Below are positions 9,844 through 49,302 of a stretch of 50,977 nucleotides of DNA, piece by piece (the first letter of the stretch is position 1; each line of letters opens with the position of its first letter). The translations under genes and the position numbers were made by a program. Source of the DNA: an uncultured Anaeromyxobacter sp. (GTDB lineage: Bacteria > Myxococcota > Myxococcia > Myxococcales > Anaeromyxobacteraceae); assembly GCA_903904005.1 (NCBI GenBank), contig CAIVAR010000024.1:1-50977 (forward strand), written 5' to 3'. The notes beneath the pieces are model-generated. The model made no database searches, was not told where the DNA came from, and saw only the letters and a program-made list of their open reading frames with translations.

Positions 9844-9844
9844 G

Positions 9845-10864: not shown

Positions 10865-11769
10865 CGGGTTCCCTTCGCGCCGGCGGTCCCCGGCGCGGCC
10901 GTCCCCAGCGCGCCCTGGAGCTGCTCGAGCGCGGCGGGGAGCTGCGGTCCGGGGCGCAGCACCCGGTCGTCGGGGAGGCGGACCACCCGGCCGCCCTTCA
11001 CCGCCGGGATGGCGGAGAGGCGGGCGATGGTGTCGGCGGGCTCGTTGACCGCGGCGTCGATGACCAGATCCGGGTCGTCGGCCACCGCCCGCTCGAGCGA
11101 GTAGACCGGCCAGGGGCGGTCCCCCGTGACGACGTTCACCCCGCCCGCGATGCGGAGCAGCGCGTCCGGGTAGCTTCCCGGTCCGGCCACCACGAGCGGG
11201 TCGCGCCCGATGACCAGCATCACCCGCCGGCGCGGCAGGGAGGAGGCCCGCGCCTCGGCGGCACGGACGGCCGCCTCCATGGACGCGGCGAGCCGTTCGC
11301 CGGCCTCCGGGTTGCCGAGCGCCGCGCCCACGCGCCGGGCGGCCCGCAGCACGTCGGGGACCCCCACCACCGGCAGCGCCAGCACCGGCACACCCAGCTC
11401 GGCGATGCGCCGGACGGCCGGGTAGGCGCCGCCATCGGCGAGCCAGAGGACGAGGTCGGGGCGGAGCCCCAGGACCGCCTCCGGGCTCGGGTCGAGGAAG
11501 CCCCCGACCCGGGGCAGCGACTTCACCTCGGGTGCGGTGTCGTAGCGGGTGACGCCGACCAGCTTCCCGGTCTCGCCGAGCGCGATGACCGTGTCGGTCA
11601 GGCTCGGGGCGAGCGAGATGACGCGGGTTGGCCGCGCCGGGGCCGCTGGCCCCAGCCAGGTCGGTTCGCCGCGGGGGAGCGGGTCGGCGGCCGCCGCGGG
11701 GAGCGGGGCCGCCGCGAGGGCGAGGGCGAAGGCGGCCAGCGCCGCCAGGATGAGGTTCGACCGGGTCAT
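10861..11769 (-). CDS. btuF: Periplasmic cobalamin-binding protein (BtuF-like)
   Basis: 302 residues. An N-terminal signal peptide of ~28 residues ends near AAA. The mature protein follows the class III binding-protein pattern: RVISLAPSLTDTVIALG, VGGFLDPSPEAVLGLRPDLV, and a C-lobe with IAGGVNVV and VYSLERAVADDPDLVI. It should carry cobalamin from BtuB across the periplasm to BtuC. The ATG at 11769 overlaps the beta-propeller lipoprotein gene stop by 4 bases, and the stop overlaps btuC. A tail after ~285 is Ala/Gly-rich and of no clear function. Confidence 0.85.
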   Translation of the reverse strand: MTRSNLILAALAAFALALAAAPLPAAAADPLPRGEPTWLGPAAPARPTRVISLAPSLTDTVIALGETGKLVGVTRYDTAPEVKSLPRVGGFLDPSPEAVLGLRPDLVLWLADGGAYPAVRRIAELGVPVLALPVVGVPDVLRAARRVGAALGNPEAGERLAASMEAAVRAAEARASSLPRRRVMLVIGRDPLVVAGPGSYPDALLRIAGGVNVVTGDRPWPVYSLERAVADDPDLVIDAAVNEPADTIARLSAIPAVKGGRVVRLPDDRVLRPGPQLPAALEQLQGALGTAAPGTAGAKGTR

Positions 11770-12986
11770 CGTCCGCAGATCACGTCGGCCACGAAGCTCG
11801 AGCCGGTGCCGGAGGCGGGGCAGACGAGCCCCCGCGAGGTCACCGCCCGCGAGACGGGGTCGAACCGGAGCACGTTGCCCGAGAACCGGTCCGCGGCAAA
11901 GCCCACCCCGTCGCAGAAGGTGATCGCCCCGGGGGCCGCCCGGGTGGCCGGGACGGCCGTGCCCACCACGGGAGTGGCGCCGGAGACGTCGACCGGTACG
12001 AAGGAGGCGCCGGTGATGTCGGCGGAGCTCGTCGCGTCGTACGGGAAGAAGCCGCAGGTGACCCAGACCGTGGAGCCCAGCACGGCGATGCCGGCGGGGT
12101 TGAGGCAGCCGGGCCCGAGATCGACTGGGTTCGGTGAGGCGGTGCCGGTGGTCGTGTCGATCACCGCCAGCCGCCCGTTCCCGGCCGGCGCGTAGAAGGC
12201 GTCCAGGTTCCAGAGCGTGACGTAGACCCGGGTGCCCGACACGGCGAGGCGGGAGGGGAGGGCGCTTGCGCCGGGGCTCGCCAGCGACGAGAGGTCCACG
12301 TTCCCCGTCACCGTCCGTGTGTCGAGGTCCACGACGGCCACGGAGCTCCACCCGTTCAGGGCCACGTAGCCCTTCGTGCCGCGGAAGGCGATCCCCTGGG
12401 GGAAGGAGAAGTTGCCGAGCTGGATCTCGGCCACGATCGGGGACGCCGCCGCCGGATCGACGACGAGGAGCGAGCCCACCGCGGCGTTCGAGACGTAGAG
12501 GAGCCCGTTCCACTCGGCGAGGTATTCCAGATCCGAGAAGGGGCCGGAGACCGGCACGCTCACCGTGGGGAAGGCGCCGTCGGGGGCGAGGCCGGATGCC
12601 GACAGCTTCATCCGGTCGAGGGTGTTGCTGATGGAGTTCGCCACCCACAGCGACGTCCCGTGCCAGGCGAGCGAGATGGGGCCGGTCTCCACCGCGACCG
12701 GCGCGCCGACCGCGAACGGGATCGCGGTGGCGCCCTGCACCGCGCTCCCGTTGAAGCAGGCCGCGTAGACCGAGGCCGAGCACCCGGCCCCCGAGCAGCA
12801 CTGGCTTCCCGAGCAGCTCTCGCCCGAACCGCACGCAAAGCCGCAGGCCCCGCAATTCCCGGGGTCGCTCGCCAGCGATGTGCACTGTCCGTCGCAGATC
12901 ACCTGCTCGGTCGTGCAGACCACCTCGGCCTTGCAGGCGGCGAGCGAGGCGGCGAGGAGCAGGGCTACGGCGGTGCGATGGGTCAT
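11766..12986 (-). CDS. Cys-rich beta-propeller lipoprotein in the B12-uptake operon (BtuG-like candidate)
   Basis: 406 residues. A lipoprotein signal peptide ends in LAAC (C18). A Cys-rich module follows (about 24-75) with DPGNCGACGFACGSGESC, a motif frequent in myxobacterial surface lipoproteins. The rest (80-406) repeats blades such as LWVANSISNTLDRM, LYVSNAAVGSLLVVD, GYVALNGWSSVAVVDLDT and VYVTLWN, i.e. an YncE/NHL-type beta-propeller. It lies 3 bases after btuB and overlaps btuF, so it is co-expressed under the cobalamin riboswitch. In Bacteroides, the beta-propeller lipoprotein BtuG caps BtuB and captures B12; an analogous role here is inference from fold and position. Confidence 0.7.
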   Translation of the reverse strand: MTHRTAVALLLAASLAACKAEVVCTTEQVICDGQCTSLASDPGNCGACGFACGSGESCSGSQCCSGAGCSASVYAACFNGSAVQGATAIPFAVGAPVAVETGPISLAWHGTSLWVANSISNTLDRMKLSASGLAPDGAFPTVSVPVSGPFSDLEYLAEWNGLLYVSNAAVGSLLVVDPAAASPIVAEIQLGNFSFPQGIAFRGTKGYVALNGWSSVAVVDLDTRTVTGNVDLSSLASPGASALPSRLAVSGTRVYVTLWNLDAFYAPAGNGRLAVIDTTTGTASPNPVDLGPGCLNPAGIAVLGSTVWVTCGFFPYDATSSADITGASFVPVDVSGATPVVGTAVPATRAAPGAITFCDGVGFAADRFSGNVLRFDPVSRAVTSRGLVCPASGTGSSFVADVICGR

Positions 12987-12989
12987 CTG

Positions 12990-14909
12990 TCAGTTCTCCG
13001 GGGAGGTGCCGATGCGCAGGGTGACGAGCAGGGTGCGGGAAGGAAGCGGGTAGCCGAAGCCGTCCTGGAGGGTCCGGTCGTCGAGGAGGTTCTTCACCTC
13101 CACGCCGATGCGGACCTCCGGACTCCGGAGGATCCGGGCGAAGGCGCCGGCGTTCACGACCAGGCTGGCCGGGGCGGAGTGGATGTTGCGGGAGTCGAGG
13201 TACTGGAGCCCCACGTACTGGGCCTCGAGGTGCCCCCCGGCGATGCCCGGGTCCACGGAGACGCGGGCGAAGGCCCGGTTGCGCGGCCGCTGTGGCAGCT
13301 CCTTGCCCACCACGCCCGGGACGCCGCGCAGCACGGTGGTGGCGAGAAAGGTGTAGGAGAGCTGCCCCTGCAGCCCCCAGAGCGTCTTCGCCGCCGCGGT
13401 CAGCAACTCGAGCTCGAGGCCGGCCGACGATGCCCGCAGCGAGTTCTGCGGCTTGAAGCTCCCGGGAACGAGGCCGGGCTCGTAGACGATGAGGTCGTCG
13501 TAGAGGGCCCCGAAGCCGCCGGCGCTGGCCCGGCCCAGCGGTCCGTCGTAGACCAGCGCGCCGTCCACGCTCCAGGCCACCTCGGGGCGCAGGTTCGGGT
13601 TGGGCTCGAACGGCCCCTGGACCATGTAGAGCTCGGAGAAGCTGGGCGGGCGGAAGGAGCGGCCGCCGCTCACGCGCAGCGACCAGGGGCCCGAGATGCG
13701 GACGCTCGTCCCCAGCTTGGCCGAGACCCCGGAGAAGGGGCCCACCGCGTCCACCCGGACCGCCGGTGAGATGCGGGCCGCGTCCTTTCCGATGGTGAAG
13801 TCGTCGGCGGCCCAGGCGGCGTAGGTGGGGCGCTGGTGGTCGCCGCTGGCCGTGGAGTCGAGCCGCTCCAGCGACGCCAGCGCGCCCGCCGTGAAGAGGC
13901 TCGGCCCCGCCTCCCAGGTCACCTTCGCCTCGCCGCCGCCGGCCGCGTCCCGCTGGTCGGTGGTGCTGCCCCCCACGGGAGAGGCGACGTACACGTCGAG
14001 CGTCTCGTAGCGCCCGGCCGCGCCCGCCTCGAAGGTGAGCCCGGAACCGAGCTGGCGCGACCAGCGCAGCGCCCCCGAGGCCCGCCCCCCGCGTTGCCAG
14101 TCGTCCGGCGTTGGGCTCGCCGGAACGCCGGGAAGCTGCCGCCAGCCCCAGGAGAGCTGGACCACGCCGTCCAGCCGGTCCAGCCCCGGCGACCAGCGCC
14201 CCTTCACCAGGAGTCCACCCTGGGCGGCGGCGTCGTTCTCCCGGATCTGGAGCACGAGCGGGCTGTCCGGCACCGAGGGCGAGGACGGGGTGAGGTACGG
14301 GAAGTCCCCCCGGGTCGAGCTGCCGGTGAGTGCGGCCAGGACCGCCCAGCGGTCCCCCCCCACGCCCACGTCGGCGACGGCCGAGGTGGTGCCGAAGGAG
14401 CCGCCGGTGAGCTCGACGCCCCATTTCCCCGCCACGGCAGGGAGGGTGACCACGTTCACCGCGCCCCCCAGGGCACCGGCCCCGTAGTAGGCCCCCTCCG
14501 CGCCGCGGACGATCTCCACGCGGTCCACCCAGTGGAGCGGGATGGTGGAGAGGTCCACGCCCCCGCCGGCCGCGGTGTCGAGGGGGATGCCGTCGAGCAG
14601 CACCCGCACCCCGGCAGTGCCCGACCCGCGGATGGAGATGGTGCTCATCTGTCCGAGGCCGCCGTAGCTGCGGACGGCCACGCCCGGGGCGGTGGCGGCG
14701 AGCTCGGCGACGGTCTTCAGCTCCCCGGCGAACCGGTCGGCCTCGACGACGGTGGTCGACGCGGTGGGATCCTGCGGCGCCGGGGAGCGGGGCAGGGTGA
14801 TGACCTGCTCCTCGAGGCGGACCGGGGGGTCCCCCTCGGCGCCACGGGCCAGCCGGCCCCATGTCACGGCGAGTGCAAAAAGCACCCGGCGCGCGCGCGT
14901 GAGTCGCAT
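12990..14909 (-). CDS. btuB: TonB-dependent outer-membrane cobalamin receptor (BtuB-like)
   Basis: 639 residues from the ATG at 14909. A signal peptide is followed by a plug domain with LAATAPGVAVRSYGG, ISIRGSGTAGVRVLLDGIPL and VDRVEIVRGAEGAYYGAGAL, then a 22-strand-type barrel ending in VTLRIGTSPEN. The N-terminal stretch RLEEQVITLPRSP may be the TonB box. It is the first gene after the cobalamin riboswitch and is followed by the propeller lipoprotein, BtuF, BtuC, amidohydrolase-like and BtuD genes, which supports cobalamin or a related corrinoid as substrate. The long in-frame region upstream of this ATG is the riboswitch leader, not protein. Confidence 0.9.
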   Translation of the reverse strand: MRLTRARRVLFALAVTWGRLARGAEGDPPVRLEEQVITLPRSPAPQDPTASTTVVEADRFAGELKTVAELAATAPGVAVRSYGGLGQMSTISIRGSGTAGVRVLLDGIPLDTAAGGGVDLSTIPLHWVDRVEIVRGAEGAYYGAGALGGAVNVVTLPAVAGKWGVELTGGSFGTTSAVADVGVGGDRWAVLAALTGSSTRGDFPYLTPSSPSVPDSPLVLQIRENDAAAQGGLLVKGRWSPGLDRLDGVVQLSWGWRQLPGVPASPTPDDWQRGGRASGALRWSRQLGSGLTFEAGAAGRYETLDVYVASPVGGSTTDQRDAAGGGEAKVTWEAGPSLFTAGALASLERLDSTASGDHQRPTYAAWAADDFTIGKDAARISPAVRVDAVGPFSGVSAKLGTSVRISGPWSLRVSGGRSFRPPSFSELYMVQGPFEPNPNLRPEVAWSVDGALVYDGPLGRASAGGFGALYDDLIVYEPGLVPGSFKPQNSLRASSAGLELELLTAAAKTLWGLQGQLSYTFLATTVLRGVPGVVGKELPQRPRNRAFARVSVDPGIAGGHLEAQYVGLQYLDSRNIHSAPASLVVNAGAFARILRSPEVRIGVEVKNLLDDRTLQDGFGYPLPSRTLLVTLRIGTSPEN

Positions 14910-14943
14910 CGTCCTGCGCGTCTCCTTCGGACGCGGGACAGCC

Positions 14944-14964
14944 GGTCGCGAACCATTCGCGACC
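14944..14964 (-). promoter_or_regulatory. Perfect hairpin between riboswitch and btuB start (possible expression platform)
   Basis: A perfect 9-bp inverted repeat with a 3-base loop (GGTCGCGAA, TGG, TTCGCGACC on the transcript) lies between the B12 box and the btuB ATG at 14909. There is no U-run after it, so it is not a canonical intrinsic terminator. It may act in translational control or protect the leader, as part of the riboswitch expression platform. Confidence 0.45.
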
Positions 14965-14969
14965 TTGCT

Positions 14970-15165
14970 CGGGGGGAGGTCTCCTGGCTTCCGGGGAACG
15001 GCTCGACGGGCCGTCGGCGCCTGCCACCTTCCCATCGCGCGACGCGCGACAGTGGCGACTGTCCTGCAGGCACCTCTTCCCCGGCTACAGTGGCGGGACC
15101 GCGCCGGACTTCGACCGGCTTCCCTTATCCCCAGAGCGGCAATGTCCCGCCGTGGTAGCCCCTGG
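14970..15165 (-). promoter_or_regulatory. Cobalamin (AdoCbl) riboswitch upstream of btuB
   Basis: On the minus-strand transcript the hallmark elements occur in order: GGGAA followed by GGT...CC (about 15124-15105), CCGCCACTGT (about 15097-15088), a second GCCACTGT (about 15057-15050) and the B12 box AGCCAGGAGACCT (14989-14977). Spacing and order match the cobalamin riboswitch class. It is the only notable content of the 488-base gap 14910-15397 between btuB and the divergent lipoprotein gene, apart from the downstream hairpin; I see no other convincing element there. Cobalamin should repress the whole btu operon. The 5' edge is approximate. Confidence 0.9.
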
Positions 15166-32950: not shown

Positions 32951-34498
32951 ATGTACGCTTCGATCCTTCTCGCTGTGGCGATGGCGGCCGAGGCCGATCC
33001 CAACGGGCCTACCTGCAAGCTCTCCGGCGATGTGCTGCGGGCCTACGGCATCGGAACGCCCTGGGCGGAACTGGCCCGGATGGCGGAGGACGTGGGCGCC
33101 GCGCCCCTGCGTCCGGACCTCTTCCAGCGACCAGGCGACCGGCAGATCGCCCTCTGCGCCGACGGGCCGGCGCTGCCGATGGGGCGCAGGGAGCCGGAGG
33201 CGAAGCCCGGGACGCTCGACCTGTCGCTCGTGCCGGCGACCCTGTCGGTGTATGCGAACACGGCCTACCCGTCGGGCAAGAACGACGGAGCGGTCTGGCA
33301 GGGGAAGGGGATCTCGACGCAGCTCACGGGCGGGCTGCAGTTCAACTGGGGGATCCTGTCGGCCGCCTTCGTGCCGAGCGTGGCGTGGCAGCAGAATGCC
33401 GCGTACGCGCTGCTGCCGACCCGGGATGGGATGAGCCCCTACTCCAACCCGTACTATGGTGCAGCCCTCGACGTGCCGCAGCGTTTCGGGGACGCGAACT
33501 TCTGGACGCTCTCGCCGGGGCAGAGCTACGTGCAGCTCTCCTACGCCGGTCTCGGCGGTGGCATCTCCACCGAGAACCTCTGGTGGGGGCCGGGGATCCA
33601 GAACACGCTCCTCATGACCAACAACGCCGACGGCTTCCCCCACGCCTTCCTGGGGACGGTGCGGCCGGTCGACATCTGGATCGGAAACCTGGAGGCCGAC
33701 CTCTGGTTCGGCATGCTCAACCGGTCCAGGTACTTCTACACGCGGGACAACGGGTGGTTCGGAGCCTTCACGGCCGATCTGGAGCTCCGCTGGCTGCGCG
33801 GGCTGTACGTGGGCGGTGCCGTCGTGAACCTGGCCTCGGATCTCTGCGGGGGAGGGTGCGACCGGAACACCAACACGCTCTTCGGGCTCTACATGCGCTG
33901 GGTGTTCCCGCCCGCGGGGGTCGAGGTATACGCGGAGTGGACCCGGGAGGACGGCGCGACCGATGCGGGCGACTTCTTCAAGGAGATGGACCATTCGGCC
34001 GGCTACACGCTCGGGCTCCAGAAGGTCTTCGTGGGAAGCGACTACTGGGTCCGGGTGATCGCCGAGATGAGCGACAACGACATCCCGCGCCCTCCCCGCT
34101 ACTGGCGTGACAACCCGACCTCCTACTACACGCACCCCGGCAACACCGGCTACACGAACGGCGGGCAGATCCTGGGTGCGGAGATGGGGCCCGGCGCTTC
34201 CACGCAGTATCTGGGGGTGGACGTCGTCTCCCAGGCCGGCTGGTTCGGGGGCTACCTCCAGCGGACGCGCCGCAACGACGTCTACACCACGTTCGTCAAC
34301 CCGAGCCAGGACTTCCCCGACGTGGAATTCGGAGGCGGTGGACGCTACGTCGGAACCTTCGGGGCCTTCGATCTCGCGGCGGTGGCCGGGATCTTCCAGC
34401 GCTGGAGCCACGACGGACTGCCGAACATGCTCAACTTCCATGGCGAGGTGCAGCTCACCTGGTGGCCGGGAAAGTCGCTCGTGACGGCCTCGAGATAG
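32951..34498 (+). CDS. Capsule assembly Wzi-family outer-membrane protein
   Basis: 515 residues with a short N-terminal hydrophobic signal. The segment GGISTENLWWGPGIQNTLLM, then TNNADGFPHAFLGTVRPVDI, is the core of the Wzi family, whose barrel binds and anchors capsular or exopolysaccharide at the cell surface. Gly- and aromatic-rich beta strands continue to the C-terminus (LNFHGEVQLTWWPGK). It is followed, 3-5 kb away, by a second Wzi-like gene and a YjbH-type gene, so several surface-polysaccharide functions lie together. Confidence 0.8.
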   Translation: MYASILLAVAMAAEADPNGPTCKLSGDVLRAYGIGTPWAELARMAEDVGAAPLRPDLFQRPGDRQIALCADGPALPMGRREPEAKPGTLDLSLVPATLSVYANTAYPSGKNDGAVWQGKGISTQLTGGLQFNWGILSAAFVPSVAWQQNAAYALLPTRDGMSPYSNPYYGAALDVPQRFGDANFWTLSPGQSYVQLSYAGLGGGISTENLWWGPGIQNTLLMTNNADGFPHAFLGTVRPVDIWIGNLEADLWFGMLNRSRYFYTRDNGWFGAFTADLELRWLRGLYVGGAVVNLASDLCGGGCDRNTNTLFGLYMRWVFPPAGVEVYAEWTREDGATDAGDFFKEMDHSAGYTLGLQKVFVGSDYWVRVIAEMSDNDIPRPPRYWRDNPTSYYTHPGNTGYTNGGQILGAEMGPGASTQYLGVDVVSQAGWFGGYLQRTRRNDVYTTFVNPSQDFPDVEFGGGGRYVGTFGAFDLAAVAGIFQRWSHDGLPNMLNFHGEVQLTWWPGKSLVTASR

Positions 34499-38080: not shown

Positions 38081-39615
38081 GGCAACCCAGGCTCCTCCCG
38101 CTGCTCCTCGCGCTCACCGTCTTCCCCGCTGCGATCCCCACCGCGGCGTGGGCCACCTGGGGCGCTGCCGACGAGCTGCCGAGGTACGGCGTTTCGCCGC
38201 TTCTCCCGCCCGAGCACTGGGCCGTCCGGGCCGCGGCACGGCTCGACGGGGTGGGGCTCGTGACCGGCTGGCTCCCTGCCAACCAGGCCGCGCCGATGTA
38301 CATGGTCTGGGCAGCGCTCGACGAGGGGGCGCGCCGCGCCGAGAAGGAGCGGCCGGCCATGGCCGCCGTGGCGAAGGGCTGGAAGGAGAAGTTCCAGCAG
38401 GAGTGGCGCGGCATCGACGAGAAGGGGCTCTTGAGGTTCATCGGGGGGCAGGCGTCGGTGGGGTACGAATACGCCGCCGTGTCTCCCGAGCCGGCGGCCG
38501 TCCCGCCGGAGACGTGGTCGCTCACGCCGCCGAAGGACTCGACCCCGTTCCTCGAGGTCCAGGCGGCCGGCGCGCTCTCCGACCACCTCGCCCTGCTCGT
38601 GGCGCCGGTGGGCACGACCTGGCAGGTGAAGTGGGCCGGCGAACTCGTGGCCGGCGTCGGTCCGGTGTCACTCTCGGTCGGGCGCGCCCCCGCCCAGTCC
38701 GGCTTCGCCGCCCCCGGAGGCGGCGTGATGTTCGGCGGGGAGGCCTTCCACGACCGGGTCGCCTTCCAGATCTACCGGCCGCTCGACATCTACATCGGCC
38801 TCGTCGCGCTCGACGTCTCGCTCGCCCGCGTGGGCGTGCTGACGCAACCCGCGACGTCACTGATCTGGGAATGGTCGCTCCAATACCAGCCCGTGCCGCG
38901 GCTCACCTTCGGCCTGCAGAGCGGCATGATGATGGGCGGCTCGACGTGGGAACAGATCGCCGGGCAGCCGTTCACTGTCAGCGACTTCTTCCGCGCCATC
39001 ACCTACCAGGGGGCCGGGTACATGAACAACGGCTATCCCAACAACATCTTCTCCCTGTCAGGCCGCTGGCGTCTGCCCACCGAGGACTGGGTCCCCATCA
39101 CCATCTACGGTGACTGGGGAACCGACGACAACGGCGGCGCCTGGATGCAGGCACCGGGCATCGATGCCGGCATCTTCGTCCCGGCATTGCCCTTCGCTCC
39201 GGAGGTCGCCGTTGGGCTCGAGGTGAGCTTCTTCGGGGAGATCTGCAAGGAGCGGACGGACAGTTCCTTCTGCCGGTCGCCCGACCAACCCCTCCGGTGG
39301 TACACGCATACCTACTACCCCTGGACGGCGGGCAACCTGCCACTCGGCCATCGAATGGGGGGCAACGGGCGGGAGTTTCTCCTGTACGCCGCCGCCGACC
39401 TTCTCGACGCCCGCCTGCTCATCCGCGGCGACGTGTTCCTTCGCGACCGATTCTCGCAGAACCTCTACTCCCCGTACTCTGGCCAGTCCGCCGGCTTCGA
39501 CCTGCAGGCCACCTGGCGCCTCGGCATCGGCGAGGTGGGGGTATCCGGAAACGTCGAAGCCGCCAGCGGATGGACCGCCGGCGGCTTCGGTGTGCACGCT
39601 TCGGTCTTCTTCTAG
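38077..39615 (+). CDS. Second Wzi-like outer-membrane protein
   Basis: 512 residues from a GTG that overlaps the dgkA stop. A signal peptide (RQPRLLPLLLALTVFPAAIPTAAWA) is followed by a helical segment (about 60-125) and then beta strands. The core GPVSLSVGRAPAQSGFAAPGGG, then RVAFQIYRPLDIYIG, fits the Wzi fold, in which RPx follows a G-rich loop; similarity is weaker than for the gene at 32951. It is translationally coupled to dgkA. A role in anchoring or exporting surface polysaccharide is likely but inferred. Confidence 0.65.
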   Translation: MRQPRLLPLLLALTVFPAAIPTAAWATWGAADELPRYGVSPLLPPEHWAVRAAARLDGVGLVTGWLPANQAAPMYMVWAALDEGARRAEKERPAMAAVAKGWKEKFQQEWRGIDEKGLLRFIGGQASVGYEYAAVSPEPAAVPPETWSLTPPKDSTPFLEVQAAGALSDHLALLVAPVGTTWQVKWAGELVAGVGPVSLSVGRAPAQSGFAAPGGGVMFGGEAFHDRVAFQIYRPLDIYIGLVALDVSLARVGVLTQPATSLIWEWSLQYQPVPRLTFGLQSGMMMGGSTWEQIAGQPFTVSDFFRAITYQGAGYMNNGYPNNIFSLSGRWRLPTEDWVPITIYGDWGTDDNGGAWMQAPGIDAGIFVPALPFAPEVAVGLEVSFFGEICKERTDSSFCRSPDQPLRWYTHTYYPWTAGNLPLGHRMGGNGREFLLYAAADLLDARLLIRGDVFLRDRFSQNLYSPYSGQSAGFDLQATWRLGIGEVGVSGNVEAASGWTAGGFGVHASVFF

Positions 39616-41207
39616 CCGCCTGCGCCGGTCTGCTGGCAGGTGACCGATGCGGAGATGGTCAGCGAGCTCGTCTGGCCGCTCACCAGCGTGATGCTCTTGT
39701 CCGCGAAGACCGGCGTCCCGCCCACCGAGGTCTTCACGGTGAGCGGCGTGCCGTGAGGCAGGTTGGGGATGGTGAGAAGGCCCTCACCGTTGGTGAGCCC
39801 CTTGCCGAGGAGTTCCTCCGGCCCGCCCAGGGCGAGGACGCCCCACACCGTGACGGAGGCCGACCCTACGGTGCTGGTCTTGGTCGGATCCTCGGTGCAG
39901 GCCTTCTGCACGGTGACCCCGAGGGTCGCGGGGGGCAAGGGGGGCACGGTCACGTTCAAGGGGCCCACGGAAGGGGCGCACAGGTTGGTGAAGGCGAGCG
40001 TGCCGACCTGCCTGCCCTGATAGTACGCGTAGAGAAACCCTTTGACGGGCGAGGGGAAGTCGGTGAGCTTCATCGACGAGGCGGTCAGGCCTATCGCGAT
40101 CGTGTTCTCGTAGCCGGCGGTGATCATCCAGATGTCGATGGGGCGGCCCGCCGCGTTGCCGGCGATGGTGAGAGTGGGGGACACCGCACAGGCGACCTGG
40201 GGCTGGAACCAGCCCAGGTTGAAGTAGGAGAGGTGCGTCACCTCGCCCGTGGCGAGGAGGCCCGACGGACCCTGCGCCACGATCAGGTTGCCTTCCGACT
40301 GCCACTTGCCGCTTGCGGTGTCGTAGCTCCAGAACGGGATCGGGTCGCCCACGGCGATCGGGATCTCGGTGAGCGGGTTCACCGTCCCGGCGGGGATGGC
40401 CTGGGCGATCGCGATCGGCTGGTTGAAATTCGAGGCCAGGCGGCCGCTGGAGTCGACGATCTGGACGGAGTTGAATCCGACGGTGAGGAACGAGCCCTGG
40501 CCCTCACCGGGGATGTCCACGCTGAAGCCGCTTGGGAAGTTGTTCAGGGAGGTCACGTCGACCGGGTTGTAGTACACGACCACCGCCGTGAGGGCTCCGG
40601 TGAGCGGCGCCCCGTCCTTGGCGGTGACCGTCGTCTTGGCCGGGATGGTGACGGAGGCCGTTCCCCCGGTCGTCGGTTCGGGGTTCGTCTGGACGGTCAC
40701 GGCGGCGTCGGTCGTTCCGCCAGGATTCGCCGTGCCGGCGGAGGCCTGGGTCGCGGTGACGCCCGCGGGCGGGTCGAGGATCTTCACGACGGCCGCGGAG
40801 GTCTCGATCCCCGCGCTCGTGGCGACGGTGAAGTTGTGGCTCGTCGTCGCGTAGCCGGTCGCCGTCACGACGGCGACGAGGCTCTGGGGAAGGGCCGCGG
40901 TGGACGCGATCTGGAAGATCGCCGTCCCGCCGCTGGTGGTGAAGGCCGCGGTCGCCACGCCGGCGCGGTTCTGGGTGACCGTCGAGAGGTTGCCGGACGT
41001 GTCACGAACCGTGATGACCGCCGCCGCGGGAATCGGGAGGTTGTTGGCACTGTCGATGACGAGGACCGAAACCGGGCGCGCCAGGACGGGAACCGGAGGC
41101 GGCGGGTTGATCTGCTCTGTCGTGGTGCTCTTGCACGCCTGGAGTGTGCCCAGCGACAGGAGCATGAGTGCGAGTGCGCGGGGCCTGCTGACTGATAGCG
41201 TCATCAT
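39612..41207 (-). CDS. Large surface lipoprotein with Ig/carboxypeptidase-regulatory-like domains
   Basis: 531 residues. The signal ends in LQAC (C25). A Pro-rich linker precedes a beta-sandwich domain (VSVLVIDSANNLPIPAAAVITV...), then a middle region with PFWSYDTASGKWQSEGNLIV and THLSYFNLGW, a pattern seen in FAM171/CILP-type and many bacterial surface proteins, and a C-terminal Ig-like module. Cysteines at the C-terminal end may pair. It is divergent from the YjbH-like gene by 84 bases and ends 4 bases into the convergent Wzi-like gene. Function is unknown. Confidence 0.65.
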   Translation of the reverse strand: MMTLSVSRPRALALMLLSLGTLQACKSTTTEQINPPPPVPVLARPVSVLVIDSANNLPIPAAAVITVRDTSGNLSTVTQNRAGVATAAFTTSGGTAIFQIASTAALPQSLVAVVTATGYATTSHNFTVATSAGIETSAAVVKILDPPAGVTATQASAGTANPGGTTDAAVTVQTNPEPTTGGTASVTIPAKTTVTAKDGAPLTGALTAVVVYYNPVDVTSLNNFPSGFSVDIPGEGQGSFLTVGFNSVQIVDSSGRLASNFNQPIAIAQAIPAGTVNPLTEIPIAVGDPIPFWSYDTASGKWQSEGNLIVAQGPSGLLATGEVTHLSYFNLGWFQPQVACAVSPTLTIAGNAAGRPIDIWMITAGYENTIAIGLTASSMKLTDFPSPVKGFLYAYYQGRQVGTLAFTNLCAPSVGPLNVTVPPLPPATLGVTVQKACTEDPTKTSTVGSASVTVWGVLALGGPEELLGKGLTNGEGLLTIPNLPHGTPLTVKTSVGGTPVFADKSITLVSGQTSSLTISASVTCQQTGAGG

Positions 41208-41291: not shown

Positions 41292-43295
41292 ATGACCTGC
41301 AACGACGACCGAGTGATCGGAAGTGACCGCGAAATCTCGCGTCGTCCCTCACGGGATCGGCTTTCACCTGTAATTGCAGCCGCCGCACTCCTGGCCCTCT
41401 CCGCACCCGCTCCCGCCAGGGGCGCGAGCCCGTCCCTCGAGGGTTACACCGGCCTGCTCCGGACCCCGTCGGCGTGGGTCGAGGAATCGGGGCGGATGAT
41501 GCTTCTCGTTGGACAGCCCGGGGACCCCGGCCTCTTCGCCGGTGCGACCCGCTATGCGATCACCCTGGGCTTCCTCCGGTACCTGGAAGCTTCGGCGGTG
41601 GACACGGACTGGGTTGGAGCGGGCAGCGATCTCTCCGCCAACCTCAAGCTGCAGGTCCCGCTCGACCTGATCTTCCCGGGAATCCCCGTGGCGTTTGCGG
41701 CGGGCGGGCAGTCCATCGGCGGCACGGCCGACCATTTCCGGACCTGGTACGTCGTCGCGAGCGCCAGGCTGTGGCGCCTCGACGGAACGGTCGGCTGGGG
41801 CAGCGGTCCGGGCCGGATGCAGGGCGTGTTCGGAGGACTGTCGCTGAGCGTGGTCGACGGCGTCGAGATCGTGGGCGACTGGGACACCAAGGACATCCAC
41901 GTCGGGGCGAAGGCCTCCGTTTCCCTCGACCCCCTCATCGGCGTCCCGATCCGGATAGGCGGCATCTTCTCGAGCGCCGTGACCCGCAGCCCGGTCACCT
42001 TCGCCTGGGGGGCGACGCTCGAGATCCCGCTCTGGTGGAGCCAGGACCCGGACGGGAAGCGGACGCCACCGTACGTTCCTCCAGTTCCCGACGAACCGCC
42101 GGCGCCGATACCTCCCGCACCGACACCTCCCGCACTTCCCATCGCCGACGCGGGCCTGGCACGTCTCGAGGACGCGCTCGTGGAAGACGGCTTCGAGGAG
42201 GTCCGCGTCGGCCGGCAAGGGGACCGGATCGTCGTCGAGTACGAGAACGACCGCTACAACTACGACCAGTCCGACGGCCTCTACGTCGTGATGCGCGAGA
42301 TCGAGCGGAGCGCCGTGGCGGCGGAGCCGGTCACGGTGGTCCTGAAGCGCCACGGGTTGCGGCTCGCCGAGATGGAGTTCCCGGGGAACCGCCCGGCCGG
42401 CGGCCGGTTCATCCCTGCGACGACCAGCTTCTCGCTCACCCCGCCGGAGCGGCCGGCGGTCTGGGCCTCACCGTCTCCACGGAACCGCGTGTTCCTCCAC
42501 TCGCAGCTGGTGCTCGCGCCCGGACTCCGGACCTGGGTGGGAACCGAGACCGGCCTGTTCGACTTCGTCCTCTCCTTCCGCCCCCAGTTCATCCTCCCCT
42601 TCTGGCCCGGGCTCGTCGGATTCGTGCAGGCCGACATCCCGTTCCTGTGGTCGTCGGGGATGGCCGACGGGGCCGGGCTCGCCTTCCTGCGGCCCGCGCC
42701 GGCGATGCAGTACGCGCTCCTCCAGCAGACTCTCGGCCTCGGCCACGGCGTGATGGCGATGGTCGGAGGAGGGCTCTACGCCACCTCCTACGCAGGCGGC
42801 CTCGGCGAGGTCATGTGGGCGGTGGGGAACGGCGACCTCGCCATCGGCGTCCAGGGAGCCTGGCTCTGGGACCAGGACTACGTGCAGCACCGGTCCGTGA
42901 CCGGCTCCATCCGCTACCGCTTCCCCCCGCTCGACCTCGTCGGGTCCATCCAGGCCGGGAAGTTCGTCGGCGACGACGTCGGCGTGAGCGTCGAGCTCTC
43001 CCGCTGGTTCGGGAACACCCAGGTCGGATTCTTCTTCACCAAGAGCGACTTCACCGTCGCGGGTGCGTTCATCACCATCCCGCTCACCCTGCGACGCGAC
43101 ATGGACCCGGGCTACATCCAGGTCCGCGGGTCGAGGCGCTGGGCCTACCAGCTCGGGACCCGGGTGGGCGGTGGCGCCAATTACGTGGGCGGGAAGGTCA
43201 TCGGCGTGTCGCCGGTCGCTCCCATGAACCTCGAGACCGAGTACTTCGACGAGAGCCGCATCTCGCTCGACGGGCTCGTCAAGGAGTTCGAGTGA
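41292..43295 (+). CDS. YjbH-family exopolysaccharide biosynthesis/export protein
   Basis: 667 residues with a good ribosome-binding site (GGAAGGG). An N-terminal signal (RLSPVIAAAALLALSAPAPARG) is followed by EGYTGLLRTPSAWVEESGRMML, the typical beginning of YjbH/GfcD lipoprotein-barrel proteins. A Pro-rich linker (~260-285) precedes a periplasmic domain, then a C-terminal barrel (LRTWVGTETGLFDFVL... to GKFVGDDVGVSVELSRWFG and MDPGYIQVRG). YjbH proteins work with group 4 capsule/exopolysaccharide secretion. It is the nearest upstream gene of the giant cytochrome, 199 bases away and in the same direction. Confidence 0.8.
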   Translation: MTCNDDRVIGSDREISRRPSRDRLSPVIAAAALLALSAPAPARGASPSLEGYTGLLRTPSAWVEESGRMMLLVGQPGDPGLFAGATRYAITLGFLRYLEASAVDTDWVGAGSDLSANLKLQVPLDLIFPGIPVAFAAGGQSIGGTADHFRTWYVVASARLWRLDGTVGWGSGPGRMQGVFGGLSLSVVDGVEIVGDWDTKDIHVGAKASVSLDPLIGVPIRIGGIFSSAVTRSPVTFAWGATLEIPLWWSQDPDGKRTPPYVPPVPDEPPAPIPPAPTPPALPIADAGLARLEDALVEDGFEEVRVGRQGDRIVVEYENDRYNYDQSDGLYVVMREIERSAVAAEPVTVVLKRHGLRLAEMEFPGNRPAGGRFIPATTSFSLTPPERPAVWASPSPRNRVFLHSQLVLAPGLRTWVGTETGLFDFVLSFRPQFILPFWPGLVGFVQADIPFLWSSGMADGAGLAFLRPAPAMQYALLQQTLGLGHGVMAMVGGGLYATSYAGGLGEVMWAVGNGDLAIGVQGAWLWDQDYVQHRSVTGSIRYRFPPLDLVGSIQAGKFVGDDVGVSVELSRWFGNTQVGFFFTKSDFTVAGAFITIPLTLRRDMDPGYIQVRGSRRWAYQLGTRVGGGANYVGGKVIGVSPVAPMNLETEYFDESRISLDGLVKEFE

Positions 43296-43494: not shown

Positions 43495-46400
43495 ATGCAA
43501 AAGCCTTTCGTGGCCCCCGTCCTCGCCTCGGTTCTCCTCGCCTCCCTCGCCAGCGGATGTGGCGGCAGTGGCTCCCAGGCCTCGTCGTCGGTTCCAGTGC
43601 CGTCCGGGGTCAGCCACTCCAGCCACCTCCGCGGAGGAACCGTCGCCGCGGGGATGACCTGCGCCTCGTGCCACTCCCCGACGGGATTCGCCGTCGACTT
43701 CTCGCAGGACCCGGTGGTCCGTGCGGCCGGCGCCACCTACGACCCGGTGACGAAGACCTGCAGCAACGTCAGCTGCCACGGAAACTTCGCGATTCGCGGC
43801 GTTGAGGGCACCCACGCGATCGTCCGGTGGAACGACCCCGCCGTCACCTGCAGCTCCTGCCATGGGATGCCTCCCGCCGGCCACCCGGCGGTCGCGAACG
43901 GCGCCGACCCGAGGAGCTGCAACATCTGCCACTCCGGGACCGTGAACCCCGACGGGAAGGTGAACGTCGCCGGCGGCCTTCACATGAACGGGAAGCTGGA
44001 CGTCGAGGGCGGCTCCTGCACGGCGTGCCACGGCGACGTGGCCCGTGTCGCCAACGTTGCCGGCACCGATCTCTTCATGACCTCGGCGCCGCCCGTCGTC
44101 TCGCCCGGCGCCTCCGCCTCCGCAGCCGGCGCGCATCTCGGCCACGTGAACCCGCTCGCCTCGACCGGGGTGATGCTGCCCATCGCCTGCGCGGAATGTC
44201 ACGCCGTTCCCTCGGACGACACCCACGCCATCTCCCCGCCCGCCCAGAAGGTCGTGTTCGGGCCACTCTCCACGACCGGGGCCGCATCGCCGAGCTGGAC
44301 CGTTGCGACCGCCGGCTGTTCGGCCACCTACTGCCACGGCAACTTCTCCTTCTCCGGGGTCACCGGCGCCTCCGTCACGCCCGTCTGGACGGACACGGCG
44401 CCTGCCACCTGCACCTCCTGCCACGGGATGCCGCCGGTCGGTCATCCTCCGCTCGCCGGGACGAGCACGCCGGCTTCGTGCAGCGCCTGCCATCCCCAGT
44501 CGGTGGACGCCGATGGACGCATCGTCTTCGCCGGAGCTCACCTGAACGGCCTCGCCGACGTGGCGGCGCTCGGATGCACGAGTTGCCACGGAGATCCGGC
44601 GCGCACGGGGAACCTGCCGGGCACCGACGTGAACCTCGTGTCGGCACCTCCCGCCGCGCCCGGCGGCGCGCCGGCCTATGCCTCGGGGGCCCACCTCGGC
44701 CACGTGAATCCCACGGCCGAAACGGTGCTCATGGCGCCCATCGCCTGCAGCGAGTGCCATCCCGTGCCAGCCGATTCGAAGCACGCGAAGACGCCCCCGC
44801 CGCAGGGTGTCGTCTTCGGCGCGCTCTCCCGCGCGGGCGGTGCGGCCCCGACGTTCGTGGCCGGGACCGCCGGCTGCGCGGCCTCCTATTGCCACGGCAA
44901 CTTCAGCTTCAACGGGGTGTCGGGCTCGAATGCCACCCCGACGTGGACCGACACCGCGCCGATCGGCTGCACCTCCTGCCACGGGATGCCTCCCACCGGA
45001 CACCTCGCGGTCGCCCAGCCGGCGAACGCCGCCTCCTGCGCGAGCTGCCATCCCCTCGCGTTCAACCCCGACGGATCGCTCAACCAGGTCGACGCGGGTC
45101 ACCTGAACGGGAAGTCCGACGTGGCGGCCCTCGGCTGCACGAGCTGCCACGGCGACGCGGGCCGGGCCTCGAACCTCCCCGGCGTGGACGTGAACTTCGC
45201 GTCGGCTCCGCCGATCGCGCCCCCCGGCGCGCCCGCGTACGCGACGGGCGCGCACCTCGGCCACATGAACCCCGCGGCGGCAACGGCGGTCATGGATCCC
45301 CTCAGCTGCAGCGAATGCCACACCGTGCCCACCGACAACGTCCACGCCAGCCGCCCGCCCACCCAGCGGGTCGTCTTCGGGGCGCTCGCCAGCGCCGGCG
45401 GCGCGACGCCGACCTGGGTGGCCGGAAGCGCGGGATGCCTGGCGTCCTACTGCCACGGCAACTTCAACTTCAACGGCGTGACCGGGTCCACGATCACGCC
45501 CGTCTGGACCGACACCACTCCCGCCACCTGCACCTCCTGCCACGGGATGCCTCCCAGCGGGCATCCGCCCTTCCCCGGCGCGACCACCGCCGCCAGCTGC
45601 GCCACCTGTCACCCGCAGTCGGTGGACCCCGCGGGCAAGATCGTGTCCGGCGGCAACCACATGAACGGGAAGTCGGACGTGGCCGAGCTGGGCTGCACGA
45701 GTTGCCACGGCGAAGCAGGGCGCAAGGGCAACGTTCCGGGCACGGACCTGAACCTGGCGTCGGCGCCACCCGTGGCGTCTCCCGGCGCCCCGGCCTCCGT
45801 CGTCGGCGCCCACCTCAGCCATCTGAACCCCCTGGCCGTTCCGGCCATCATGGGTCCCGTCGCCTGCGCCGAGTGCCACGTCGTTCCCACCGACTCCAGC
45901 CACGCGACGAAGCCACCCCCCCAGAAGGTCGCCTTCGGGCCGCTCGCGAGGACGGGGGGCGCGGTTCCGACGTATGTCGCCGGCAGCCTGGGCTGCGCCG
46001 CCTCCTACTGCCACGGCAACTTCAGCTTCAACGGGGTGTCCGGCTCGAATGCCACGCCCCTCTGGACCGACACCGCACGGCTCACCTGCGCGTCCTGCCA
46101 CGCCATGCCCCCCACCGGCCACCCTCCGCTCGCCGGATCGGTCACGGCGGCCTCGTGCAGCGCTTGCCATCCGCAGTCGGTGGACGCGGCGGGCGACATC
46201 GTGGCCGGGGGAGGGCACCTGAACGGGATCGCCGACGTGGCGGCGCTCGGCTGCACCCAGTGCCACGGCGATCCGAAGCGGACCGGGAGCCTCCCGGGCG
46301 CCGACCTGAACCTCACGTCGGCTCCGCCGGCGGCATCACCGGGCGCTCCGGCGTACGCCACGGGTGCGCACCTCGGCCACGTGAACCCCGGTGCCCCGAC

Positions 46401-49302
46401 GGCGCTCCGAGGCCCCATCGCTTGCGCCGAATGCCACGTCGTTCCCGCCGACTCCGCCCACGCGGCCCGGCCGCCCGTGCAGAAGGTGGTCTTCGGACCA
46501 CTCTCCACGTCCGGCGGCGCGGTGCCCACCTGGACGGCCGGGACGGCCGGTTGCGCCGCGTCCTACTGCCACGGCAACTTCAACTTCAACGGCGTTTCCG
46601 GCACGACGACCACGCCAGTGTGGACCGACACGACGGCGCTCACCTGCACCTCCTGCCACGGCATGCCGCCCACCGGCCACCTCGCCGTCGCCGGGCCCGT
46701 CACGGCGTCGTCTTGCTCCATGTGCCACCCCACGTCGGTGAACCCCGACGGCTCGCTCAACCTGATCGACCGGGGCCACCTGAACGGGAGGTCCGACGTC
46801 GCGGTTCTGGGGTGCACGAGTTGCCACGGCGATCCGGGCAGGGTCGCCAACGTCGCCGGGACGGACCTGAACCTCACGTCGGCTCCCCCCGTCGCCTCCC
46901 CCGGCGCTCCCGCCTTCGCGGCGGGCGCCCACGCCGGCCACGTGAACCCCACCGTGGCGACATGGCTCATGCCACCGATCGCCTGCGCCGAGTGCCACAT
47001 CGTGCCGGCCGACTCGGTCCACGCCACCTACCCACCCGCCGAGCGCGTCGTGTTCGGGGCGCTCTCTGCCACGGGTGGGGCGGCTCCTGCATGGGTCGCC
47101 ACGACCGCGGGCTGCTCGGCCACTTACTGCCACGGCAAGTTCAACTTCAGCGGCGTCACCGGCTCCTTGGCCGTGCCGCTCTGGAGCGACACTTCGCCCC
47201 TCAACTGCACCTCCTGCCACGGCATGCCGCCCACCGGCCACTTCGCGGTGGCGGCTCCCACCGACGCGGCCTCCTGCTCGAAGTGCCACCCCTCCGCGGT
47301 GAACGCAGACGGCACCATCAACAGGGTCGACAAGGGACACCTGAACGGGAAGGTGGACGCGGTCTCCCTCGGGTGCGCGAGCTGTCACGGCGACGCCACC
47401 CGCAAGGGCAACCTCGCCGACACCGACCTGAACCTCGCCTCGTCACCCCCGGTCGCTTCCCCCAACGCCCCCGCCTACGCGGTCGGCGCGCACCTCGGCC
47501 ACGTGAACCCGGTCGCCGGGAGCGCGGTGATGGCCCCCATCGCCTGCGCGGAGTGCCACGTGGTGCCGGCTGATTCGAAGCACGCCACCAGTCCACCGGC
47601 GCAGCGGGTCGTATTCGGGACGCTCTCCAAGGCCGGCGGCGCCGTGCCGTTCTGGAGCGCGAGCTCGGCCGGCTGCTCGACGTCGTACTGCCACGGCAAC
47701 TTCTCCTACAACGGGATCGGCGGGGCGAACGCCACGCCGATCTGGACCAACACGGCGCCGCTCACCTGCACCTCGTGCCACGGCATGCCGCCGCCGAACC
47801 ACGTCGCCGTCGCCGCTCCGGTGACCGCGGCCTCCTGCTCGATCTGCCACCCCAGGGCGTTCAACGCCGACGGCTCGCTCAACCTCGTCGCCAGGGGTCA
47901 CCTGAACGGGCAGGCCGACACGGCTCTGCTCGGGTGCACGGCCTGCCACGGCGATGCCACGCGCAATGGGATCCTCGCCGGTGTCGACGTCAACCTGCCC
48001 TCCGCACCCCCCGTCGCGTCTCCCGGCGCTCCCGCCTACGCGGTCGGCGCTCACCTCGGGCACCTGAATCCGACCGCGGCCAGCGCGCTCATGGGCCCGA
48101 TCGCCTGCACCGAGTGCCACTCGGTTCCGGCCGACTCGACGCACGCCACCAGCCCACCCGCGCAGAAGGTGGTCTTCGGAGCCCTCGCCAAGACCGGCGG
48201 CGTGTCGCCCACCTGGACGGCCGGCACCGCCGGATGCGCCGCCTCCTACTGCCACGGCAACTTCTCCTTCGGCGGCATCACGGGCTCGAACGCGACGCCC
48301 ATCTGGACGAGCCCGACGGCCATGACCTGCACCTCCTGCCACGGCATGCCCCCGACCGGCCACGTCGCGGTCGTCGCACCGGTCACCGCGGCCTCGTGCA
48401 ACGCATGCCACCCCAAGGCGGTGAACGCCGACGGGACCATCAACCTGACCGATCGCGGTCACATGAACGGGCTCGACGACACCTCGGCGGTGGGCTGCGC
48501 CACCTGCCACGGGGATGCCACCCGCAAGGCCAACCTCGCCGGAACCGACGTGAACCTCACCTCGGCGCCTCCGGTGGCCCCGGCGGGCTCACCCGCCTAC
48601 GCGGTCGGCGCGCACCTGGGGCACATGAACCCGACGGTGGCGACCTACCTCATGGCGCCCATTGCGTGCGCCGAGTGCCACGTCGTGCCCGTCGACTCGG
48701 CCCACGCGACGAGCCCGCCCGCAACCGTCGTCGTGTTCGGCACCCTGTCGAAGACCGGTGGCGCCGCGCCCGCCTTCAGCGCCGGCACGGCCGGCTGCTC
48801 CGCCACGTACTGCCACGGCAAGTTCATCTTCAACGCCGTCACCGGCTCCAACGCGACGCCCACCTGGACGAGCACGGCGGCGCTGGCCTGTACCTCCTGC
48901 CACGGGATGCCACCGACCGGCCACCCGGCCTTCTCCGGGACGCCCACGGCGGTGAGCTGCTTCCAGTGCCACCCCCAGTCGGTGAACGCCGATGGGACGA
49001 TCAAGCAGGCAGGAGGCCACATCAACGGCAAGGCCGACGGCGGCGGATGCACGGGTTGCCATGGCGACCCGCCAGCCACCGGCAAGCACACCATCTCCGA
49101 CCACAAGAACCGTCGCTGCGATGCCTGCCACCCGACCGGCTACACGAGCAGCGTGACGATCCCGGCCTTCCACAACAACGGCAAGTCGAATCTCGGAACC
49201 CAGGCTGGTTACAAGTGCAACAACGTGGCCTCACTCGTGGGCTGCCCGACCGGCCAGACGCGGACCTGCGCCAACAGCTGCCACGGCTCGGAGAAGTGGT
49301 GA
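43495..49302 (+). CDS. Giant multihaem c-type cytochrome lipoprotein (ten CX4CH/CXXCH repeats)
   Basis: 1935 residues. The signal ends in LASGC (C22), so it is a lipoprotein, probably on the outer membrane or cell surface. After a lone CASCH come ten tandem repeats of 186-187 residues. A full repeat has five haem-type motifs in fixed order: CX4CH (as GCAASYCHGNF), CTSCHGMPP, CSACHP, CTSCHGD and CAECHxVP. In all I count 41 CXXCH, 10 CX4CH and one CX3CH, i.e. 52 potential haems. Conserved GAHLGHVNP and HLNG give extra His that could be distal ligands. The family is the Geobacter/Anaeromyxobacter CX4CH...CXXCH cytochromes, used in extracellular electron transfer. Confidence 0.93.
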   Translation: MQKPFVAPVLASVLLASLASGCGGSGSQASSSVPVPSGVSHSSHLRGGTVAAGMTCASCHSPTGFAVDFSQDPVVRAAGATYDPVTKTCSNVSCHGNFAIRGVEGTHAIVRWNDPAVTCSSCHGMPPAGHPAVANGADPRSCNICHSGTVNPDGKVNVAGGLHMNGKLDVEGGSCTACHGDVARVANVAGTDLFMTSAPPVVSPGASASAAGAHLGHVNPLASTGVMLPIACAECHAVPSDDTHAISPPAQKVVFGPLSTTGAASPSWTVATAGCSATYCHGNFSFSGVTGASVTPVWTDTAPATCTSCHGMPPVGHPPLAGTSTPASCSACHPQSVDADGRIVFAGAHLNGLADVAALGCTSCHGDPARTGNLPGTDVNLVSAPPAAPGGAPAYASGAHLGHVNPTAETVLMAPIACSECHPVPADSKHAKTPPPQGVVFGALSRAGGAAPTFVAGTAGCAASYCHGNFSFNGVSGSNATPTWTDTAPIGCTSCHGMPPTGHLAVAQPANAASCASCHPLAFNPDGSLNQVDAGHLNGKSDVAALGCTSCHGDAGRASNLPGVDVNFASAPPIAPPGAPAYATGAHLGHMNPAAATAVMDPLSCSECHTVPTDNVHASRPPTQRVVFGALASAGGATPTWVAGSAGCLASYCHGNFNFNGVTGSTITPVWTDTTPATCTSCHGMPPSGHPPFPGATTAASCATCHPQSVDPAGKIVSGGNHMNGKSDVAELGCTSCHGEAGRKGNVPGTDLNLASAPPVASPGAPASVVGAHLSHLNPLAVPAIMGPVACAECHVVPTDSSHATKPPPQKVAFGPLARTGGAVPTYVAGSLGCAASYCHGNFSFNGVSGSNATPLWTDTARLTCASCHAMPPTGHPPLAGSVTAASCSACHPQSVDAAGDIVAGGGHLNGIADVAALGCTQCHGDPKRTGSLPGADLNLTSAPPAASPGAPAYATGAHLGHVNPGAPTALRGPIACAECHVVPADSAHAARPPVQKVVFGPLSTSGGAVPTWTAGTAGCAASYCHGNFNFNGVSGTTTTPVWTDTTALTCTSCHGMPPTGHLAVAGPVTASSCSMCHPTSVNPDGSLNLIDRGHLNGRSDVAVLGCTSCHGDPGRVANVAGTDLNLTSAPPVASPGAPAFAAGAHAGHVNPTVATWLMPPIACAECHIVPADSVHATYPPAERVVFGALSATGGAAPAWVATTAGCSATYCHGKFNFSGVTGSLAVPLWSDTSPLNCTSCHGMPPTGHFAVAAPTDAASCSKCHPSAVNADGTINRVDKGHLNGKVDAVSLGCASCHGDATRKGNLADTDLNLASSPPVASPNAPAYAVGAHLGHVNPVAGSAVMAPIACAECHVVPADSKHATSPPAQRVVFGTLSKAGGAVPFWSASSAGCSTSYCHGNFSYNGIGGANATPIWTNTAPLTCTSCHGMPPPNHVAVAAPVTAASCSICHPRAFNADGSLNLVARGHLNGQADTALLGCTACHGDATRNGILAGVDVNLPSAPPVASPGAPAYAVGAHLGHLNPTAASALMGPIACTECHSVPADSTHATSPPAQKVVFGALAKTGGVSPTWTAGTAGCAASYCHGNFSFGGITGSNATPIWTSPTAMTCTSCHGMPPTGHVAVVAPVTAASCNACHPKAVNADGTINLTDRGHMNGLDDTSAVGCATCHGDATRKANLAGTDVNLTSAPPVAPAGSPAYAVGAHLGHMNPTVATYLMAPIACAECHVVPVDSAHATSPPATVVVFGTLSKTGGAAPAFSAGTAGCSATYCHGKFIFNAVTGSNATPTWTSTAALACTSCHGMPPTGHPAFSGTPTAVSCFQCHPQSVNADGTIKQAGGHINGKADGGGCTGCHGDPPATGKHTISDHKNRRCDACHPTGYTSSVTIPAFHNNGKSNLGTQAGYKCNNVASLVGCPTGQTRTCANSCHGSEKW
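43774..49000 (+). repeat. Ten tandem coding repeats of 558-561 bp
   Basis: The TGCCACGG of the CX4CH motif recurs at 43774, 44332, 44890, 45451, 46009, 46567, 47128, 47689, 48250 and 48811: spacings are 558, 558, 561, 558, 558, 561, 561, 561 and 561 bases. The first five units differ from the last five in one codon of length, suggesting growth by duplication of multi-repeat blocks. Unit 10 lacks the fifth motif. The end coordinate is approximate. Confidence 0.95.

Follow-up and report, generated by a model that had tools for sequence, protein, structure and literature searches.

The window, i.e., the whole stretch of 50,977 nucleotides analysed here, contains a gene for a c-type cytochrome built from ten tandem five-haem modules. 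With a probability of roughly 65%, this protein is a conduit for extracellular electron transfer, made of haems on a single chain and enlarged by module duplication. Its size and architecture are not new, since it is neither the largest array in its own genome nor the sole ten-unit array in its family. Such arrays are common in the relatives and are sometimes larger, and the window protein is a neatly built example of a cytochrome type already known.

The Gene and Its Haem Motifs

The 52 haem motifs of the protein consist of 41 CXXCH, ten CX4CH, and one CX3CH (Table 1). The coordinates, the length of 1935 residues and the motif counts of the original prediction were all exact. Shuffling of the residues left 0.9 motifs on average and 5 at most. 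The GC content at the third codon positions is 0.91, in line with the surrounding genes. Only three of the 107 Cys residues are outside the motifs: Cys22 of the lipobox, Cys1908, and Cys1917.

The N-terminus, MQKPFVAPVLASVLLASLASGC, matches a PS51257-like lipobox pattern in its permissive form only, with Ala at position -3, and on this pattern a lipobox is plausible. The 52 motifs together with this N-terminus correspond to what characterizes multihaem c-type cytochromes, several CXnCH motifs and an exported N-terminus. The C-terminal cap contains one CXXCH, one CX3CH, three other His, and the unpaired Cys1908 and Cys1917. These two Cys residues (region 48985–49302) are also conserved in a five-module sister gene, and a disulphide bond between them is possible.

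Table 1. Features of the cytochrome gene. Positions are those of the window.
Feature	Residues	Position	Strand	Basis
Whole gene, lipoprotein multihaem c-type cytochrome, 52 haem motifs	1935 aa	43495..49302	+	ORF, motif count
Predicted lipoprotein signal peptide	1-21	43495..43557	+	Pattern match only
Predicted lipid-anchor Cys22	22	43558-43560	+	Pattern match only
Short Ser/Gly/Pro linker	22-40	43558..43614	+	Sequence
Module 1 (5 motifs, 5 other His)	41-213	43615..44133	+	HxxH frame
Module 2	214-399	44134..44691	+	HxxH frame
Module 3	400-586	44692..45252	+	HxxH frame
Module 4	587-772	45253..45810	+	HxxH frame
Module 5	773-958	45811..46368	+	HxxH frame
Module 6	959-1145	46369..46929	+	HxxH frame
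Module 7	1146-1332	46930..47490	+	HxxH frame
Module 8	1333-1519	47491..48051	+	HxxH frame
Module 9	1520-1706	48052..48612	+	HxxH frame
Module 10 (end shortened)	1707-1857	48613..49065	+	HxxH frame
C-terminal cap	1858-1935 and stop	49066..49302	+	Motif/His count

The NCBIfam model TIGR01904 matches all ten units (E 4e-94, 308 bits against a cut-off of 27), and PF09698 matches ten stretches (88 bits against a cut-off of 21.7). With both curated cut-offs exceeded, the protein belongs to the CxxxxCH/CxxCH cytochromes, in agreement with its earlier assignment to a family of haem conduits of Geobacter and Anaeromyxobacter. The Cytochrome_C7 model is also matched. Above the cut-off, the Pfam scan of the window protein returned cytochrome models only, and no S-layer domain was found.

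Five-Haem Modules and Extra Histidines

The cleanest repeat frame starts at the HxxH pair and gives ten modules of about 187 residues and the two-motif cap. The counts are the same in all ten modules, namely exactly five motifs and five other His. The spacings of the motifs are 35, 28, 23, 33, and 57 at the start of the array, followed by repeats of 45-29-23-32/33-57, and the final spacings are 30-23-51. Successive CX4CH motifs start 186 or 187 residues apart. The fixed five-motif order that had been proposed is borne out by these values.

Besides the 52 His in the motifs, the protein has 53 others. The five extra His of each module are seen in the conserved contexts GMPPxGH, xHxNG, GAHxxH (two His), and DxxHA. 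In an alignment of 90 modules from the window protein and related proteins, the motif residues show no or almost no variation, and the distal His (reference positions 118, 151, 202, 205, and 232) are at least 90% conserved. At least five non-motif His are present in 79 of 80 five-motif units from 16 arrays. By analogy with known multihaem cytochromes, one distal His ligand per haem and bis-His coordination at most sites are likely. Near-complete haem loading is also likely, because the 1:1 stock of extra His is conserved.

Structure predictions describe the module in part. An AlphaFold2 model of three units from a 22-row alignment was unusable (pLDDT 41.8), and the placement of the modules cannot be read from it. 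A model of 250 residues around module 6 (46327–47076, about 1.3 modules, 90 rows) reached pLDDT 81 and pTM 0.64. Coil predominates in it, together with short helices, and this is expected of multihaem cytochromes. Neither Foldseek nor VIA-align found a PDB fold match to this model, probably because haem-free, coil-rich cytochromes are poor queries. By profile, the best solved sequence relative is GSU1996 (3OV0, E 2e-8), which is distant.

The modular and periodic chain could also be considered as a subunit of micrometre filaments formed by end-to-end polymerization, as is the case with OmcS, OmcE, and OmcZ. OmcS and OmcE are likewise chains with bis-His coordination, in which neighbouring subunits share His at their borders (PMC12954529). 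However, searches of PDB sequences with the protein or the unit profiles matched none of the three. Foldseek did not match their folds either, which is a weak test, as it matched nothing at all. The predicted lipid anchor and the distinct end caps speak for a monomer that is complete in itself, and polymerization of this kind is very improbable.

Age and Duplication of the Repeats

Units 1–9 are 52–74% identical to one another in protein, and modules 1–9 are 59–75% alike in DNA. Where the encoded amino acid is the same, the third codon bases are identical in 52–73% of cases against 57% by chance, mostly near the random level. Because of this protein identity and of the third-base agreement mostly near chance, the repeats are, by their sequences, old and held by selection.

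The source genome is a draft of 186 contigs (4.56 Mb, 98% complete), and in such a draft the repeat number of a repetitive gene could be an artefact of the assembly. The longest exact direct repeat in the gene is, however, only 38 bp, so that collapse or expansion of short reads is unlikely. Together with the old and diverged units, this largely refutes a misassembled array, and an error in the repeat number is scarcely credible.

When 80 units were placed in a tree, the first unit of the window gene and those of its five-module sister and of a large protein in another genome (G015) shared a basal position in one well-supported group. The inner units of the window gene mostly group with one another and with the units of the sister gene. 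Block duplication within the array is plausible from this tree, in which only some of the branches are well supported.

Relatives and Array Length

The five-haem unit is present in all 24 genomes of the family and in 57 of 145 genomes of the order. Array length varies strongly across paralogues and genomes. The named loci nearest to the window protein are from uncultured Anaeromyxobacter.

In its own genome, contig C37 encodes a paralogue of 2910 residues with 65 motifs. On one strand of C37:22000–41999, this gene is seen with those of 19-motif and 3-motif cytochromes, a PpiC/SurA-type isomerase, and a 39-CXXCH protein (Paired_CXXCH), which is incomplete at the edge of the stretch examined. 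This gene run looks like a large electron-transfer cluster. At C94:1–16000 of the same genome, four TIGR01904-type cytochrome genes are in a row, followed by that of a di-haem CCP/MauG-type protein. The fourth of them is the five-module sister (1002 aa, 27 motifs), which shares its N-cap with the window protein and has a C-terminal segment of 97 residues with 78% identity to it.

The big arrays in the relatives examined contain 94, 66, 66, 61, 61, and 58 motifs. The smallest of these is a 2081-aa protein of about ten units in G006, a complete single-contig genome of 5,277,990 bp, which we take to be that of Anaeromyxobacter sp. Fw109-5. Several middle or adjacent units of this array (L072:2191–8436, - strand) are 90–99% identical in DNA, and the sequences thus indicate that module duplication is recent in this genome. 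The 94-motif protein (3891 residues) is encoded in G015, the uncultured Anaeromyxobacter bin-406 (CAIOAK010000028.1, L067:5366–17041, - strand), and has an N-cap as in the window protein. It may rank with the bacterial proteins of highest haem count, although exact internal repeats of about 115 bp make the draft assembly less certain there. The genome of a close relative, G001, presumably that of strain 2CP-1, encodes a TIGR01904-type protein of 1341 aa with 40 motifs and spacings of 218, 219, 165, 167, and 167. These are less regular than in the window array, which is the most regular among the arrays examined with 186–187 aa throughout. The search for proteins of ten or more units, which had been suggested as a check, was answered by the G006 array. 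The accompanying idea that a repeat-built cytochrome of this size may be undescribed does not hold, as equal or larger arrays exist in the own genome and in the relatives.

Strong variation in array length fits charge capacity as the selected trait. Based on this, the protein could be mainly an electron-storage protein, in which the haems keep charge in reserve at the envelope as long as an acceptor is lacking, and long-distance conduction is not the task. Storage has been proposed for the large cytochromes of A. dehalogenans (PMC2330069) and for large multihaem cytochromes (MHCs) in general (PMC7399161). The strict motif spacing and the five conserved distal His of each module also fit conduction, however, and do not separate the two. 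Storage as the main task is considered rather unlikely.

Gene Neighbourhood

The gene of a YjbH-type outer-membrane beta-barrel protein (41292–43295, + strand) lies 200 bp upstream of the cytochrome gene, and a convergent HNH nuclease gene is the 3' neighbour. No gene for a porin or for another partner in extracellular electron transfer adjoins the cytochrome gene at this locus. Adjacent porin and periplasmic cytochrome genes, by which porin-cytochrome complexes (Pcc) are recognized, are not seen here, the neighbours being the YjbH-type and the nuclease genes. A search of the own genome for MtrB/PioB porins gave no match, but the control gave none either. Genes for cytochrome c assembly do occur in this genome. 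No plasmid match was found.

These observations concern a possible role as a surface terminal reductase or as part of a porin-cytochrome complex, similar to OmcB or MtrC. The Pfam model of MtrC/MtrF domain II/IV matches residues 1069–1301 (E 1e-17), and the lipobox and the origin of family genomes from metal reducers would fit such a role. However, the match covers one stretch of a multihaem repeat and could be due to CXXCH similarity in general. As no porin stands beside the gene, this role is improbable.

YjbH is present in 4 of the 24 family genomes. As a functional partner of the cytochrome it was rejected: the two genes are not side by side in G006 or in G013, which is another genus, and the contig of G015 ends inside YjbH. 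In the window, a lipoprotein gene (39612–41207, - strand) stands beside the YjbH gene. In G013, YjbH adjoins a homologue of this lipoprotein with 35% identity. Because the lipoprotein homologue adjoins YjbH in another genus, the conserved unit is, judged from gene order, the lipoprotein and YjbH pair and not the cytochrome. For the same reason, the pairing of YjbH in G013 with the lipoprotein homologue and not with the cytochrome, the cytochrome gene is likely transcribed on its own.

Near the YjbH gene are also two genes for capsule assembly proteins of the Wzi type (32951–34498 and 38128–39615), and this might be an envelope polysaccharide locus. At 8000–15035 of the window, genes for an ABC ATPase, an amidohydrolase, an FecCD permease, a Cys-rich lipoprotein, and a TonB-dependent receptor are in a row, which is probably for the uptake of iron chelates or cobalamin.

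Comparison with Known Systems

The CxxxxCH/CxxCH cytochromes (TIGR01904/PF09698) of Anaeromyxobacteraceae and Geobacteraceae are alike in unit, motif order, tandem arrays, and lipobox. The window protein differs in its N- and C-caps, which it has in common with the five-module sister. A gene with 40 haem motifs was reported from A. dehalogenans 2CP-C in 2008 (PMC2330069). It encodes a large multihaem cytochrome in the same bacterial family, with fewer haems than the window protein, and the 40-motif protein of G001 is probably its counterpart. From bioanode genomes, MHCs of 30–53 haems are known, as are homologous MHCs that differ in motif number (PMC7399161).

GSU1996 of G. sulfurreducens (3OV0) is a single chain with 12 linearly packed haems, 3–5 Å edge to edge (PMC10138318). 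It resembles the window protein in its tandem haem modules on a single chain; the linear packing is the feature of GSU1996. It differs in having four three-haem c7-type domains, 12 haems, some Met ligands, and weak sequence similarity. The OmcS, OmcE, and OmcZ nanowires may be alike in function with their contiguous bis-His haem chains, whereas they consist of many small subunits and a sequence relation to the window protein was not detected.

Very large single-chain haem arrays are also known from archaea, with 86 motifs in ANME-2c (PMC9012536) and 113 in 'Ca. Methanoperedens manganireducens' (PMC7082337). The ANME S-layer multihaem cytochromes are tied to extracellular electron transfer, as is proposed here, but they are archaeal and contain S-layer domains, unlike the window protein. 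In the open-licence literature, neither a biochemical characterization of a protein built from the five-haem unit nor a description of the exact 5:5 module used at different lengths was found.

Proposed Function and Meaning

The protein would be an exported lipoprotein, probably anchored in the outer membrane, in which ten five-haem modules are joined covalently and followed by a two-haem cap. With five attachment motifs and as many distal His in every module, the haems would form one long bis-His chain on a single polypeptide. Electrons from periplasmic or outer-membrane carriers might pass along this array to extracellular acceptors such as Fe(III) or Mn(IV) minerals, and a respiratory role can be supposed. 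As a second function, the haems could hold a large electron reserve. The family that bears the unit includes metal-respiring isolates (PMC2330069, PMC4319575). The present size of the array would have been reached by tandem module duplication long ago and then kept by selection. Duplication is considered as the mechanism of growth because adjacent modules in G006 are up to 99% identical and the units of the window gene group in the tree.

An extended, wire-like shape may be supposed by analogy with one protein, the distant 12-haem wire GSU1996. The rises of OmcS, OmcE, and OmcZ are 47, 34, and 58 Å for 6, 4, and 8 haems, respectively (PMC12954529). If the haems were spaced as in these three, the array would be about 37–44 nm long. 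It could be up to about 52 nm if they were packed as in GSU1996, with 12 haems in 12 nm.

The gain and loss of haems among homologous cytochromes have been called little studied (PMC7399161). The clean unit of five motifs and five His, with arrays of varied length in one genome and in the family, makes the relation of repeat number to conduction or storage testable. It can be speculated, tentatively and with some doubt, that the five-haem, five-His module is a self-contained block for single-chain, membrane-tethered wires of set length. Such wires might be a covalent alternative to polymeric nanowires, whose length would evolve by duplication. For protein wires with a chosen length, the five-haem module is a natural template.
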